Origin: Ferrithrix thermotolerans DSM 19514
GTDB lineage: Bacteria > Actinomycetota > Acidimicrobiia > Acidimicrobiales > Acidimicrobiaceae
Direction: 5' to 3'
NCBI RefSeq assembly: GCF_900128965.1
Contig: NZ_FQUL01000023.1
Coordinates: 1 to 36,453 of the forward strand
Length of the DNA stretch: 36,453 nucleotides
Below the pieces are notes generated by a model that did not search any database, was not told the DNA's origin, and was given only the letters and a program-made list of their open reading frames with translations. The position numbers and the translations under genes are program-made. The first letter of the stretch is position 1. The number at the start of each line of letters is the position of its first letter. Below, one piece after another: positions 8,050-27,074 of the stretch.

Positions 8050-8340
8050 TTACGAAATACCTTCGGGAAGTTCGCGCCCAGCACCTTGGTGGCTAGAGTT
8101 CTGCGCCCCTCCTACAACATAGTCATCCATCTGATGGGACCTTGACTGCTGGATGTTTTGGACCGTAAATAGAGCGACGATAGTCGAAAGGAAGCTCATC
8201 GCTATAACTGAAAACAGTAACGCTATTAGAACATGGGTCAGAAGGTCGCTCAGGACTAAGTAGCCTTTCATGAACTCAAAAAGAGAGGGTGTCGAGCAGA
8301 TCAAGGCGATCAGCATCGTTAGCTTGAATCTACCGGACAA
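8050..8340 (-). CDS. small membrane protein at the end of the flhA unit, unknown function
   Basis: I do not recognise this 96-residue protein. Residues about 7-25 and 31-60 are hydrophobic and suggest two membrane helices (LTMLIALICSTPSLFEF; LTHVLIALLFSVIAMSFLSTIVAL), followed by a polar, Ser/Gln/Gly-rich tail. The start is TTG at 8340, inside the end of the upstream gene (11-bp overlap), supported by AGAGGA about 7 nt before it. Overlap with the FlhF-like gene means it is translated from the flagellar transcript, so a motility-related role is likely but cannot be specified. A membrane partner for the FlhF-like protein is one possibility. Confidence 0.6.
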   Translation of the reverse strand: MSGRFKLTMLIALICSTPSLFEFMKGYLVLSDLLTHVLIALLFSVIAMSFLSTIVALFTVQNIQQSRSHQMDDYVVGGAQNSSHQGAGRELPEGIS

Positions 8341-9553
8341 CGTGGTTCCTCTTGGATGTGATCACATCTAGCCAACTATCAACTGTGGACCGCTGTCCGT
8401 CGACTGCGACTATCGGAAGACCGAGAGAGGTAAGCGACATCGGATCCGCAGATGAGGAAAGATTGACTATTGAGACCGCATCTACCCTTCCAAGATTAGA
8501 GAGTTGGCTCATCGTCTTGGAGAGACTCTGACCAGCATTGATCTCGGCCACAACAAATAATCGTCCTCGAGGAAACACCTCTTTGAAGTGTCTAACTGTT
8601 GAGCTTCTCGCCATCACCAACACAGACTCTCCTGCTCTAAGAGCTGCAAGTATCGCCGTTGGTTCTTCGGACATCGTCGAGTCGAAGGGACCCTGCAGAA
8701 ATATTCGGCGATCCTGTCGAATGGACAGGACGTTGCCGACCACACTAACAGAGCGCCGTGGATCCTTATCTGAACATGAAGTTAGAACTACGAGACTGCC
8801 TTCTTTAACCTTCGGCAACTCATGTAGTCTTCTGATCGCAATCGCACCCTTCGCAGCTTGGCTATCAACACCGTAGAGATCTTCTTCTTTGAAGGCTTCG
8901 TCGCGATCAGCTCTGTATGCGACCCGTCCGCGTGTAAGGTCAATCACCTTGGCTTCGTTGCGACTTTCAATAGCATTTGTCCAGGGCTCGGAGAGAAGTG
9001 GCTGCGTCGTCTCGGCATCGTCTAGCGAAGAACCTTCTACCGCCTCGCCCTGAAGAATCCACTTGGGCTTGGCAACCTCTTCCAAGTACTGGCGCTTGCC
9101 GTTTCTCTTGTAGATGACGGCTCCAAGACCCTTCTTATCTGCTGTTGAATTCTCTTGATCGACATTGTAAGGAGTTAGGTTCTCTCCAACTTTACCGGCA
9201 TCGTTGTCGATAACGTCAAGTCCGTATTCCTGATACCTCCTTAGACCTTCCCCTTTTGATCTTACCCTGAAACGCTCTTCAGCCTTAGACAGTCCCTTGC
9301 CACCATACACACCGACGCTTAGCGCATCTCGCAGTTCTTCTGCGAAGGTTTTGTTATCCACCTCAGTTCTGAGATCAATTGAACTCTTAGGCTCTACAAC
9401 TATCTCGTACTTTGTCTTGGTCAAAAAGCCTAAGGCTCTCTTTGACTTGATTCTCTGTGCAAAGACCACCTTTGCACCTGACCCACAGTGTCGGTTGGCC
9501 TTCTCAATAGCCTCCTGAACAGTCGAACCGTCAAACTTTAGCTGTTGCGTCAA
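8330..9553 (-). CDS. FlhF-position protein with FlhF-like N-terminus, no GTPase P-loop
   Basis: This 407-residue protein lies directly downstream of flhA, where flhF normally sits. Its N-terminus (QLKFDGSTVQEAIEKANRHC, then GAKVVFAQRIKSKRALGF and KYEIVV) looks like the FlhF B domain (a strand and helix, then an ILSTR-like strand and a GFF-like motif). The middle is charged and variable. The C-terminal third (SLVVLTSCSDKDPRRSVSVVG to GLPIVAVDGQ) has alternating strands and helices like a degraded Rossmann/SRP-GTPase domain. I find no GxxxxGK[ST], and the end (DAVSIVNLSSSADPMSLTSLGLPIVAVD) lacks FlhF GTP-binding motifs. The start is TTG at 9553 with GGGGTGG upstream, overlapping flhA by 23 bp. 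It may be a non-GTP-binding polarity or regulatory factor; it could also be a separate family that shares only the N-terminal domain. Confidence 0.6.
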   Translation of the reverse strand: MTQQLKFDGSTVQEAIEKANRHCGSGAKVVFAQRIKSKRALGFLTKTKYEIVVEPKSSIDLRTEVDNKTFAEELRDALSVGVYGGKGLSKAEERFRVRSKGEGLRRYQEYGLDVIDNDAGKVGENLTPYNVDQENSTADKKGLGAVIYKRNGKRQYLEEVAKPKWILQGEAVEGSSLDDAETTQPLLSEPWTNAIESRNEAKVIDLTRGRVAYRADRDEAFKEEDLYGVDSQAAKGAIAIRRLHELPKVKEGSLVVLTSCSDKDPRRSVSVVGNVLSIRQDRRIFLQGPFDSTMSEEPTAILAALRAGESVLVMARSSTVRHFKEVFPRGRLFVVAEINAGQSLSKTMSQLSNLGRVDAVSIVNLSSSADPMSLTSLGLPIVAVDGQRSTVDSWLDVITSKRNHVVR

Positions 9554-11579
9554 CTCGAACCACCCCTACTCTAACTACACGAACAGTACTTGAGACATCC
9601 CTATCTGCTAGAACCGGCACATGACATCCGTAAGAGTCCAGCAACCTTCTAAGAGGTGTCCTGATACGGAAACTCACTACCACAACTGCATCAAAGCCTT
9701 GGCGAGCAGCGTTTTCGTTGAACTCTTCAATCTGTCTGACAAGAGCTGCTGCCTCCTCTGGACTGAGAACCAACACAGAACGGCCCTCGTTGATATGAAT
9801 AGAGCCGTAAAGATAGTGTTCACTTTGTCCATCGATCTCGATCGTTGCCAAAGAGTTATTGACTATATAAGGCAACGCCAACTGGTATCCAAGACCGGCT
9901 CTAGCTGCATCCAAGAGCTGATCTGGATCCCGTGACACCTTTGACCTATCGATAACAGACTCCAAGATGGCGGCCAGATTTCTTATTGAGACACCCTCTT
10001 GCAAAAGATCCTTTATCACACGCTGAACCTCCCCGAGTCCGATCTGGGACTGTGCCATCTCATCAACCACCACCGGCGCGCTCTTCTTCAACTCATCTAG
10101 TAACTCCTTTACCTGTTGCCTGGTCACTAGCTCAGCAGCGTGTGTGCGTACGACTTCGGCCAGATGTGTAATCAATACCGAAACTCGGTCGACTACCGTG
10201 GCACCAATCGCAGTAGCCTGGGCCTTTGCACTAAGTGGAATCCACTTCGCCGGGATCTGAAACACGGGCTCCACCGTAGCTTCGCCTGGAAGGGATGCAA
10301 GGTTATCTCCGATCGCTAAGACTCGGCCCTGGGGAGCAGAACCTCTCGCAACTTCTACCTCGTAGATCTTGACTACATATGTACCTTGAGGAAGCGAGAT
10401 GTTATCTCTTGTTCTAACCGGAGGAAGAGTAATGCCGAGCTCCGTTGCAAGCTTTTTCCTGAGCCCCTTTATCCTCTCTAGCAGATCACCCCCAGCCAAG
10501 GGATCCACTATGTCAAGCAGATCAAGAGCGAGGTCAAGTTCGATAGCCTCGATAGCCGAGTCGCTCACCGCTGGATCTTGCGAGGTTTGAACGGCGGAGA
10601 TATCCGTCGGCAGTGTTATCCCTTGCTCGTCGTCCCTAGCCTGTCCCAGACTAACCCTTCTCCCCAAGGCAAACATGCCAAGTCCTACTAAGATGAAGGG
10701 GAGTTTGGGCAATCCGGGAAGAAGGCCAAGGAACGCAACCACTCCGCCGCCTAACTCCAAGGCCTTGCCCTGCTTGCCAAGTTGTGATAGGAGATCAAGT
10801 CCAAAATCCGCCTGGTTGGATGTTCTTGTTACAACCAAACCAGTCGACAGAGACATGAGCAAAGCAGGGATCTGCGAGACCAGCCCATCTCCCACTGAAA
10901 GTAGGGAGTAGGTATCGATTGCCTGGGTTATTGGTAGATGATTTTGAAGTACGCCTACGATAAAGCCACCAAGTAGGTTGATTAGGGTTATGACAACAGC
11001 AGCGACGGCGTCGCCTTTGACAAACTTAGATGCACCATCCATTGCGCCATAGAAATCAGCTTCGCGGGCTATGTGCTCTCTTCGTCTTCGAGCCTCTGCT
11101 TCATCTATATGACCAGCGTTTAAGTCAGCGTCGATCGCCATCTGTTTTCCGGGCATTGCGTCTAGGGTAAAGCGGGCGCCAACCTCAGCTACTCTGCCCG
11201 CACCGTTAGTTATCACAACGAATTGAATGATGAAAAGTATTAGAAATACCACCAGTCCCACGATCACAGATCCACCAACTACGAAGTGTCCAAAGCTTGA
11301 GATAACACTTCCTGCATATCCGTGAAGAAGCACCAATCGGGTTGCGCTGACGTTTAACGCAAGGCGAAACATCGTTGCAAGGAGCAAGACCGAAGGGAAG
11401 GCGGAGAACTCAAGCGGATCTTTTACTCGTAGAGCTACCGTAAGCACGATCATAGCAAAGGTAATGTTCAAGGTGATGGCAATATCAAGCACTGACGTTG
11501 GCAGCGGTATGACCAACATCACCACTATTAGTACAACACCCAATGGCACAAGTAACGAAGCCCTGTTAAACTTTGGCAT
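9531..11579 (-). CDS. flhA: flagellar export gate protein FlhA
   Basis: The 682-residue product is a full-length FlhA. The first 310 residues are the membrane domain with about eight helices. The FHIPEP signature is at residues 136-155 (RFTLDAMPGKQMAIDADLNAG) and the conserved cytoplasmic loop ends in DGASKFVKGD (181-190). From about residue 330 on is the cytoplasmic nonamer-ring domain (FlhA-C), which docks chaperone-substrate complexes such as FliS-FliC; it ends at DVSSTVRVVRVGVV. FlhA forms the proton-driven gate of the flagellar type III export apparatus. It is separated from flhB by an unusual 373-bp gap and overlaps the FlhF-like gene by 23 bp. The ATG has only a weak GGA upstream. Confidence 0.98.
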   Translation of the reverse strand: MPKFNRASLLVPLGVVLIVVMLVIPLPTSVLDIAITLNITFAMIVLTVALRVKDPLEFSAFPSVLLLATMFRLALNVSATRLVLLHGYAGSVISSFGHFVVGGSVIVGLVVFLILFIIQFVVITNGAGRVAEVGARFTLDAMPGKQMAIDADLNAGHIDEAEARRRREHIAREADFYGAMDGASKFVKGDAVAAVVITLINLLGGFIVGVLQNHLPITQAIDTYSLLSVGDGLVSQIPALLMSLSTGLVVTRTSNQADFGLDLLSQLGKQGKALELGGGVVAFLGLLPGLPKLPFILVGLGMFALGRRVSLGQARDDEQGITLPTDISAVQTSQDPAVSDSAIEAIELDLALDLLDIVDPLAGGDLLERIKGLRKKLATELGITLPPVRTRDNISLPQGTYVVKIYEVEVARGSAPQGRVLAIGDNLASLPGEATVEPVFQIPAKWIPLSAKAQATAIGATVVDRVSVLITHLAEVVRTHAAELVTRQQVKELLDELKKSAPVVVDEMAQSQIGLGEVQRVIKDLLQEGVSIRNLAAILESVIDRSKVSRDPDQLLDAARAGLGYQLALPYIVNNSLATIEIDGQSEHYLYGSIHINEGRSVLVLSPEEAAALVRQIEEFNENAARQGFDAVVVVSFRIRTPLRRLLDSYGCHVPVLADRDVSSTVRVVRVGVVRVDATAKV

Positions 11580-25384: not shown

Positions 25385-26067
25385 TCTCTAACTCCTCGCA
25401 GCTCATTTAGGACCTCTCGCACCCGAGCTATAGCGGTTCTAAGCTGTAAGTCCAAGGTGGTAGCCCCCTCCTCCACGACGGCACCAACAGGATCTACTGA
25501 GTCGTCTTCCACAACTTTTATATCGTGGTAACTGCCTCGTTGATATTGATCAATTATCTCCTTGACAAATAAAAACATCGAGGAATGAACCCTAACAACC
25601 AGTGTTCTTCCAGGTGGTATCTCCTTGAAGACATCCCTTAGGACTATCTCAAGCCTGCGCTGCTCAAGGTCAGGAGTCATGTGCATCACACTCTCGGCAA
25701 TTTCGAGGGCAAATTGCGCTATCTCACCCACTCTCTCCTCAAACCCATGTGCAACCAGACTCTCAAGTCGGGAGATAGCGCCGTTTAGCAGCAAAATCTT
25801 TTGGCTTAAACTCTCTTTTACCTGAGCCATCTCGGCTTGTGCTTGCGTCTCTCCTTGTCTTACACCGTCTTCGTAGCCGTTCTGATAGGCCCGCTTAAGA
25901 CGGTCTTCCATAAGCTCCTCGACCGTCTTTGGGGTCACATCCCTTGACATATCTGCTACGAGTCTCTCCACCGGCAAAAGCTCAAGCCGCACCGGCTCAG
26001 CAGAGCTCACCTGAGACTGGTGGCCTTCTAGTTCGCCAAAAACCGCCTCAACCCACGACTTTATCAT
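25381..26067 (-). CDS. fliH: flagellar assembly protein FliH
   Basis: The 228-residue protein fits FliH by its place between fliG and fliI and by its plan. It has a variable N-terminus, a helical rod with a YQNGYEDGVRQGETQAQAEMAQVKESL segment (small residues at i+4 spacing), and a C-terminal V/A-ATPase E-subunit-like domain: RVGEIAQFALEIAESVMHMTP, ILRDVFKEIPPG (observed as IVLRDVFKEIPPG), LVVRVHSSMF and VEDDSVDPVGAVVEEGATTLDLQL. The DPVGAVVEEGATTLD motif is characteristic. FliH regulates FliI and docks it to FliN. It shares one base with the fliG stop (TGATG) and ends in a 4-bp overlap with fliI. Confidence 0.93.
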   Translation of the reverse strand: MIKSWVEAVFGELEGHQSQVSSAEPVRLELLPVERLVADMSRDVTPKTVEELMEDRLKRAYQNGYEDGVRQGETQAQAEMAQVKESLSQKILLLNGAISRLESLVAHGFEERVGEIAQFALEIAESVMHMTPDLEQRRLEIVLRDVFKEIPPGRTLVVRVHSSMFLFVKEIIDQYQRGSYHDIKVVEDDSVDPVGAVVEEGATTLDLQLRTAIARVREVLNELRGVRE

Positions 26068-27074
26068 CAGTTCACCATCTCCTCGCTGGAGCGAGACAGC
26101 GTAATTTCACCGGATGCTTCCAGCTCTCTAACGACACGCACAACAGCCGCTTGAGCTGCTTCAACGGTGGACAGACGCACTGGCCCTAGAGTCTCAATCT
26201 CATCGACAAGGTCCTCCGCCGCTCGTTCTGAGAGGTTGCGCAGCACCACATCTCTCTCTTGTTCAGACACACCCTTTAGAGCCACAGCAAGATCCTTTGG
26301 AGCAATCTGTCTGAGTACCCTTTGAAGAGTTCGGTCATCAAGAGAGAGAACGTCTTCGAAGACGAACATCTGGCTACGGACCCTATCAGCCAACTCAGGA
26401 TCGACGACGTCGAGGTCAGAAAGAATACGTTTTTCTGTGCCTTGATCGACGTTGTTGAGTATCTCGACGAGCGACTGCAGGCCTGAGCGAGCCGCAGTCG
26501 GGCCAGCCTTCGACACGCCTGCCAGCTTGCGTTGCAATATCTGTGCTGTAGTCTCGATCACAACAGGATCAACCCGCTCTAGCATCGCAATCCTTCTAGC
26601 GATCTGAGCCCTCATCTCCTCTGGAAGAGCAGCCACGATCTCTGCAGATGTGTCCGACGCCAAGTACGATAGGATCACTGCTACTGTCTGAGGATGTTCA
26701 TCTTGAAGAAAAGAAGCGACCTGATAAGGTTCGACATGTGAAAGAAATCCAAGAGGATTTCCGCTGCTTCCTCCGGCAAACTGTTCAAGTATCTCATCGG
26801 CCTCTTTGGGAGAGAGCCTGGCAGCAAGTATCTCTCTAGCAGCATCGACCCCGCCTTGACCCACGCTCTGGACCGCTACTACAGAGTCGACAAACTCCCC
26901 CATAATCTCGGAGATCTGCTCTTTGTCCAAGTTCGGAAGATTGGCGATCTCCAAGGTCAAAGCAACCGCCTCGGTCTCCGTCATAGCTCTAAGTACCCTC
27001 GCTGCGAGGTCTTTGCCGAGCTGTACAAGGACTGCGGCGGCCTTCTGAGGACCCGTTAGCTCCTGCTTTTTCAT
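26067..27074 (-). CDS. fliG: flagellar motor switch protein FliG
   Basis: The 335-residue protein shows all three FliG domains. The N-terminal one starts LTGPQKAAAVLVQLGKDLAARVLRAMTETEAVAL and binds FliF. The middle one contains HVEPYQVASFLQDEHPQTVAVILSYLASDTSAEIVAALPEEMRAQIARRIAMLERVDP, including the EHPQT motif. The C-terminal torque domain reads FEDVLSLDDRTLQRVLRQIAPKDLAVALKGVSEQERDVVLRNLSERAAEDL. The charged residues of the torque helix are present. FliG bridges the MS ring and C ring and receives force from MotA. It overlaps fliF by 4 bp (ATGA) and fliH by 1 bp. Confidence 0.98.
   Translation of the reverse strand: MKKQELTGPQKAAAVLVQLGKDLAARVLRAMTETEAVALTLEIANLPNLDKEQISEIMGEFVDSVVAVQSVGQGGVDAAREILAARLSPKEADEILEQFAGGSSGNPLGFLSHVEPYQVASFLQDEHPQTVAVILSYLASDTSAEIVAALPEEMRAQIARRIAMLERVDPVVIETTAQILQRKLAGVSKAGPTAARSGLQSLVEILNNVDQGTEKRILSDLDVVDPELADRVRSQMFVFEDVLSLDDRTLQRVLRQIAPKDLAVALKGVSEQERDVVLRNLSERAAEDLVDEIETLGPVRLSTVEAAQAAVVRVVRELEASGEITLSRSSEEMVN

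Follow-up and report, generated by a model that had tools for sequence, protein, structure and literature searches.

A P-loop-less protein that is very probably derived from FlhF follows flhA in Ferrithrix thermotolerans and across its class

FlhF (TIGR03499), the third SRP GTPase, is known for its GTP cycle, which is driven by FlhG. According to the available text of a study in Shewanella, the first 44 residues of FlhF, comprising three strands and a helix, form a FliG-interaction domain (FID). This domain binds FliG, and FlhF-bound FliG cannot join FliM/FliN (PMC11236974). The same text reports that the NG domain binds HubP whatever its nucleotide state, and proposes that stimulation of the GTPase by FlhG starts the next round. 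For actinobacteria, the available text of a 2023 survey of flagella, which used BLASTP/PSI-BLAST (1e-5) and checked results with SMART and HHpred, states that classes without FlgFG (Acidimicrobiia, Nitriliruptoria, and Actinomycetia) lack FlhF (PMC10746217). These FlhF-less classes are probably the classes studied here. The string “actino” does not occur in the available text of a 2025 review of FlhF and FlhG, and the literature that we searched, by titles and the openings of abstracts, held no description of a P-loop-less FlhF.

Here, we describe such a protein from Ferrithrix thermotolerans DSM 19514, encoded within a window (the whole stretch of DNA that was analyzed) of 36,453 nucleotides. 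Its gene lies at 8330..9553 on the minus strand; frame 1 of the plus strand is full of stops across this interval. The open reading frame encodes 407 amino acids from a TTG start at 9553 and overlaps the end of flhA (9531..11579, minus strand; PF00771, E = 5.5e-235) by 23 nt. The initial annotation, which had put the gene directly after flhA, was thus correct on this point. It was equally right that the protein has an FlhF-like N-terminal domain and lacks GTP-binding motifs. A scan of NCBIfam up to E = 1 returned a sole match, TIGR03499 (FlhF), at residues 6-66 (E = 8e-4). The score of 19.4 bits falls far short of the curated cut-off of 174.15, and the protein is therefore not an FlhF equivalog by this measure. 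A Pfam scan up to E = 1 returned no match. Pattern searches found no GxxxxGK[ST] P-loop in the 407-residue protein, and no relaxed P-loop, GK[ST], TKxD, or D[ST][AP]G beyond residue 90.

Residues 1-55 (9389..9553, minus strand), predicted to form a beta-alpha-beta-beta unit, correspond to the FID of FlhF as judged by profile comparison. Profiles were built for the N- and C-terminal parts and compared, using hhalign, with P-loop FlhF of the phylum. The N-terminal profile of the window family matched canonical FlhF at 94.7% (E = 6e-8, 51 columns), and those of the three other sets at 94.4 to 98.3%, against 0.05 and 0.19% for two reversed controls. All 14 FID segments of P-loop-less proteins that were scanned, which include both types distinguished below, matched TIGR03499 with E values up to 0.1 (best 6.6e-8); three non-FlhF families matched one member each. 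The window's own segment matched TIGR03499 at E = 1.5e-4 and no other family.

Structural comparison of this domain is less selective. A model of residues 1-60 has a strand-helix-strand-strand order (pLDDT 83.6) and superposes on the FID structure 9EN1 with Z = 6.0 (1.8 Å, 45 of 47 residues). Dodecins, which share this beta-alpha-beta-beta arrangement, score up to Z = 6.6, so fold alone is indecisive. When the FID model was submitted to Foldseek, no match fell under E = 0.001, and 9en1 ranked 45th, after dodecins, Alba, and other proteins. A sequence search of the PDB with the FID profile placed 9en1 seventh (E = 0.078), in register and below unrelated chains, a match that is not evidence alone. 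Ambiguous by fold, the N-terminal FID, or B domain, of FlhF is kept in the window protein by the profile evidence.

The FID is followed by a variable linker (residues 56-228; 8870..9388, minus strand). In a whole-protein model based on five sequences (mean pLDDT 54.9), confidence drops below 50 at residues 55-235, and the helical bundle of the FlhF N domain is not recognizable. In sequence, the lowest identity between congeners falls at residues 81-236. Model confidence is better at about residues 240-402, where blocks of ten residues range from 49 to 88 and mostly exceed 68. Structural alignments begin at residue 228. Structure modeling covered the window protein alone.

The remaining part (residues 229-407; 8333..8869, minus strand) appears to be a degenerate SRP-type G domain without G1, G3, and G4 patterns. 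With the whole-protein model, the top Foldseek match was FtsY (E = 3.5e-5), followed by Shewanella putrefaciens FlhF (8r9r, E = 1.1e-4). All nine matches under 0.001 were FtsY, FlhF, or SRP-receptor complex, with modest TM-scores of 0.36-0.46 on the target; HypB and guanylate kinases came next, from 0.003. In the VIA comparison, all 50 matches listed were SRP GTPases (Z = 9.7-12.7, within residues 228-407), including FtsY 6fqd (Z = 12.7) and FlhF 8r9r (Z = 11.5, 3.7 Å over 168 residues). Residues 228-404 are thus predicted to keep the SRP-type G domain fold. The window protein resembles the NG domains of FtsY and Ffh in this predicted fold, but differs from them in lacking nucleotide motifs, and its genome has two strong SRP54-family genes besides.

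Direct comparison of the window-family C-terminal profile with canonical NG gave no link (hhalign, 0.2%). The same profile matched order- and phylum-level relatives at 97.3% (E = 2.5e-11). These relatives in turn matched P-loop FlhF at 76.7 to 80% with first segments and, with longer segments, at 94.6% in local (E = 6.6e-8) and 95.9% in global alignment; reversed controls along this chain reached at most 0.53%. The window G domain is thereby connected to P-loop FlhF through its relatives as well as by fold. In the profile alignments, the P-loop segment and the DTAGR and TKLDE positions are replaced, and the closing C-terminal segment is kept (LGLPIVAVDGQ in the window protein). A 14-row full-length profile did not find FlhF among PDB sequences. 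Its best match there, RfaG (E = 5.7e-4 for the whole chain), consisted of two weak stretches (best E = 0.3) and was taken as chance; all other PDB matches stood at 0.12 or worse.

The F. thermotolerans genome is a draft of 95 contigs, 98.8% complete. It has SRP54-family matches in four places. Two are strong and lie side by side on one contig, and are taken to be FtsY and Ffh; the other two are weak and ArsA-like by look. None of the 46 candidates, all of which were scored, exceeded the TIGR03499 cut-off, so no canonical FlhF was found. No FlhG was seen among the scanned genes of the window, as the initial annotation had noted, and none was found in the genome at E = 1e-50 with an FlhG profile (6 of 14 first-look candidates scored). 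The DQAxxLR motif was absent from the MinD-like loci examined (12 of 17 places, with all candidates there scored), which resemble ParA, Mrp-like, ArsA-like, and other proteins. This 95-contig draft thus yielded no FlhG partner ATPase. A canonical FlhF elsewhere in the genome, combined with a lack of structural similarity to FlhF, had been named at the outset as grounds for giving up an FlhF origin; we find neither.

The P-loop-less state extends well beyond this genome. Among 60 genomes of relatives, 32 have FlhA, and the window protein finds a match in 22, all of them FlhA-bearing. Of the 10 FlhA-bearing relatives without a match, nine slots after flhA were examined (one genome, G035, was left out); each has, by eye, an FlhF-like N terminus, and none has a P-loop. 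At class level, FlhA is present in 55 of 335 genomes, and none of the 335 passed the FlhF cut-off among the candidates listed and scored, at most seven per genome. Nine of the 55 slots were already among those examined, 38 more were then examined, and eight were left out. We detected the FID in 37 of the 38 (E = 1.9e-8 or better). Two of these genes are cut by contig ends, and the 35 complete ones have frames of 291-818 codons. A P-loop pattern is absent from 34 of the 35 and occurs in the G domain of none; the single match, in G599, falls within the linker (residue 89). The P-loop-less FlhF state is therefore clade-wide in the class, and its recurrence in these slots is more than chance. The expectation that an FlhF fold without a P-loop would be conserved across the clade is supported for the P-loop-less state, with the fold as predicted for the window protein. 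In the one class slot without a detectable FID (G645), the protein has a type B-like C-terminal part. In G038 and G540, most of the G domain appears, by eye, to be lost and the FID retained.

Phylum-level comparison reveals graded states. FlhA is present in 52 of 296 genomes. Thirteen slots hold a P-loop FlhF with FlhG next to it, 11 a P-loop FlhF without FlhG, seven a P-loop-less protein of type A, and 11 one of type B; five have no FlhF-like gene, and five are cut or split (G347, G208, G228, G165, and G334). The G334 slot gene is broken up across three reading frames, which points to a pseudogene or a sequencing error. FlhF over its cut-off and FlhG at 1e-50 mark an identical set of 14 of the 296 genomes, with the FlhG profile built from six of those 14 and some candidates per genome scored. 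The P-loop occurs in 13/13 P-loop FlhF proteins with FlhG and 11/11 without, and in 0/29 type A and 0/11 type B proteins. Across the same four groups, TKxD occurs in 13/13, 3/11, 0/29, and 0/11, and D[ST][AP]G in 13/13, 3/11, 1/29, and 1/11; the lone type A match (residue 182) and the lone type B match (residue 166) both precede the G domain. For the less strict DT[AP], the counts are 13/13, 8/11, 4/29, and 3/11. P-loop FlhF without FlhG, found at 11 loci in six other families of the phylum and missing the simple G3 and G4 patterns in 8 of 11 cases each, is thus an intermediate state. It resembles the window protein in its slot, its FID, the absence of a detected FlhG, and the rarity of simple G3 and G4 patterns, and differs in its P-loop and in mostly keeping the looser DT[AP].

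The two P-loop-less types are not equivalent. The six type B families (f31, f42, f64, f66, f71, and f7) have the FID and lack the P-loop, and their C-terminal part gave no link to the NG domain (hhalign, 0.2-1.4%); retention of the G fold is therefore claimed for type A and not for type B. When the B and A sets were enlarged, a high score between them emerged later; it was discarded, as sorting by regular expression had probably left B-like rows in A. Within type A, subset A3 matched A1 at 97.0% and A2 weakly, at 9.0%.

To place these states in a history, an unrooted FastTree phylogeny was computed from 61 FlhA sequences (G245 dropped). Every tip that lacks the P-loop falls in a single clade with support of 1.000, which also takes in four cut tips and G142, a genome without FlhF. 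The P-loop state changes once on this tree (51 tips, 24 with and 27 without, absent and cut ones being left out), whereas 1000 shuffles needed at least 10 changes and 17.3 on average. Given that FlhF occurs elsewhere, we infer that this change was a loss. The same tree has two changes in the presence of FlhG in the slot (56 tips) and two in the absence of an FlhF-like gene. The long-branch FlhA of G244 (family f7) groups with type B genomes, though G244 is of the window's order; its placement possibly reflects transfer.

We consider it very probable that the window protein is FlhF-derived and P-loop-less. That it is an unrelated protein, placed after flhA by chance, is suggested by the lack of a Pfam match and the low NCBIfam score, and is extremely improbable in light of its FlhF-like N terminus, predicted SRP-type fold, constant slot, and the graded intermediates. 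Another possibility is that it is a decaying, functionless relic kept by operon position. Conservation data bear on this question. At 60-70% FlhA identity, C-terminal identity is 0.55 for P-loop proteins, 0.23 for type A, and 0.41 for type B, and FID identity is 0.56, 0.37, and 0.48, respectively. At 45-60% FlhA identity, the corresponding values are 0.26, 0.19, and 0.29 (C-terminal) and 0.35, 0.32, and 0.37 (FID); these lie close together, and the contrast between P-loop and type A proteins thus shrinks with distance. The FID is better conserved than the C-terminal part in 210 of 276 P-loop pairs and 369 of 378 type A pairs. The low C-terminal identity in type A would fit decay, as would the five of 52 FlhA genomes whose slot holds no FlhF-like gene and the split gene of G334. 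Against this stand the long unbroken frames in 18 phylum and 35 class slots, and the apparent loss of the P-loop on one ancient occasion, after which the protein was long retained. Further, between the congeners G003 and G002, dN/dS (Nei-Gojobori; one pair, dS near 1, the second pair being saturated) is 0.108 for the whole gene, 0.051 for the FID, 0.085 for the G remnant, and 0.031 for flhA. A ratio of 0.11, from one pair, speaks against a relic, which we regard as very improbable.

The constraint on the G remnant, together with its predicted fold and the recurrence of its closing C-terminal segment in type A, could also mean that the domain still binds a nucleotide or other ligand at a non-canonical site. 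We regard this as improbable, because the window protein has none of the G1, G3, and G4 patterns, and the P-loop segment is free to vary from genus to genus. To judge from these motifs, the window protein presumably binds no nucleotide. A further alternative casts the protein as a positional landmark adaptor whose main partner is the small membrane protein encoded directly downstream (8050..8340, minus strand; 96 amino acids), which the initial annotation had suggested as a partner. Such a pairing has a precedent in FlhF and FipA of gamma-proteobacteria, as described in the available text of PMC11620751, and tblastn placed the small membrane protein close to flhA at 15 of 16 loci in relatives (the exception is in G050). 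The neighbor resembles FipA in being a small membrane protein downstream of an flhF-type gene. It differs in lacking DUF2802, and no Pfam family exceeds its cut-off (four families at E = 0.02-0.17 have unrelated names). Hydropathy predicts one helix in the window copy and two, forming a hairpin, in relatives. Two-helix proteins were predicted by hydropathy at 13/13 slots with P-loop FlhF and FlhG, 7/11 with P-loop FlhF only, 3/6 of type A, 4/11 of type B, and 3/5 without FlhF, with a few more by eye. In the slots without FlhF, such a protein directly follows flhA in G288, G349, and G142 by hydropathy and in G299 and G105 by alignment; no FlhG was found at these five loci at 1e-50. Across the phylum, many flagellated genomes have such a hairpin protein after flhA or after flhF/flhG, whether or not FlhF is present; the nine loci noted include three of these FlhF-less ones. 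Comparisons between small-protein groups scored 0.3 to 80% (hhalign; reversed, at most 0.9%), making homology among them suggestive. Since similar proteins occur where FlhF is absent, the small protein tracks flhA rather than P-loop-less FlhF. It could serve as a membrane anchor, but is a weak partner candidate; its special partnership is not established, and a landmark adaptor that depends on it is unlikely.

The protein should not be filed as an FlhF GTPase, since motifs, score, and partner all point away from one. It shares with FlhF the N-terminal FID, the predicted C-terminal SRP-type G fold, and the slot after flhA, and differs in lacking P-loop, G3, G4, a recognizable N-domain bundle, and a detected FlhG. 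It is better described as a variant derived from FlhF, whose function is probably that of FlhF's assembly half. We favor, as reasonably likely, a vertically inherited FlhF with a dead GTPase, which has kept its FID, a predicted G fold without motifs, and the flhF slot under purifying selection, and which acts as a GTP-independent, FliG-binding assembly factor. A protein that pairs an FID with a dead G domain, encoded where the search for FlhG came up empty, fits best with a FliG adaptor that works without GTP; we give this proposed mechanism slightly better than even chances.

Under the adaptor mechanism, the FID would hold FliG (26067..27074, minus strand; N, M, and C domains, PF14842, PF14841, and PF01706), the proposed binding partner, perhaps stabilizing it, while FliF assembles. 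The protein would thus nucleate the MS/C-ring in the manner of the FlhF B domain of Pseudomonas and Shewanella. Its dead G domain might offer a partner in the membrane or cell envelope a surface on which to dock, whatever the nucleotide. With no FlhG-triggered GTP switch, FliG would pass to FliM/FliN passively or by competition. The assembly half of FlhF would be kept and the timer gone. In Pseudomonas aeruginosa, the available text of one study reports that B+N without G gives flagella in about 65% of cells, away from the pole, that constructs without B, N, or G do not restore motility, and that the interaction between FlhF and FliG is regulated by GTP binding (PMC12713375). Given these motility and GTP-regulation results, this side of FlhF biology cannot be transferred as it stands. 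The retention of a C-terminal part without an FID in G645 is also contrary to an FID-first view. The stronger conservation of the FID likewise counts for less, since the P-loop group shows it too and the most distant pairs of the two groups hardly differ.

On balance, we think it likely that, at the origin of a large actinobacterial clade, the third SRP GTPase became, on a single occasion, an assembly factor with a dead GTPase. The steps would still be visible: loss of FlhG, wearing of G3 and G4, loss of the P-loop, and, in some lineages, loss of most of the G domain, with the FliG-binding domain kept. The published absence of FlhF would then be an artefact produced by similarity thresholds, and our result corrects the statement, in the available text of the 2023 survey, that later actinobacterial classes lack FlhF (PMC10746217). 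These lineages also illustrate, step by step, how a GTPase turns into a pseudoGTPase. A clade that keeps the FID and drops the cycle would reveal which half of FlhF is required for flagellar assembly, and suggests that flagella may start without a GTP molecular switch. If this is true, such bacteria are a natural experiment that splits flagellar nucleation from GTP-timed placement.
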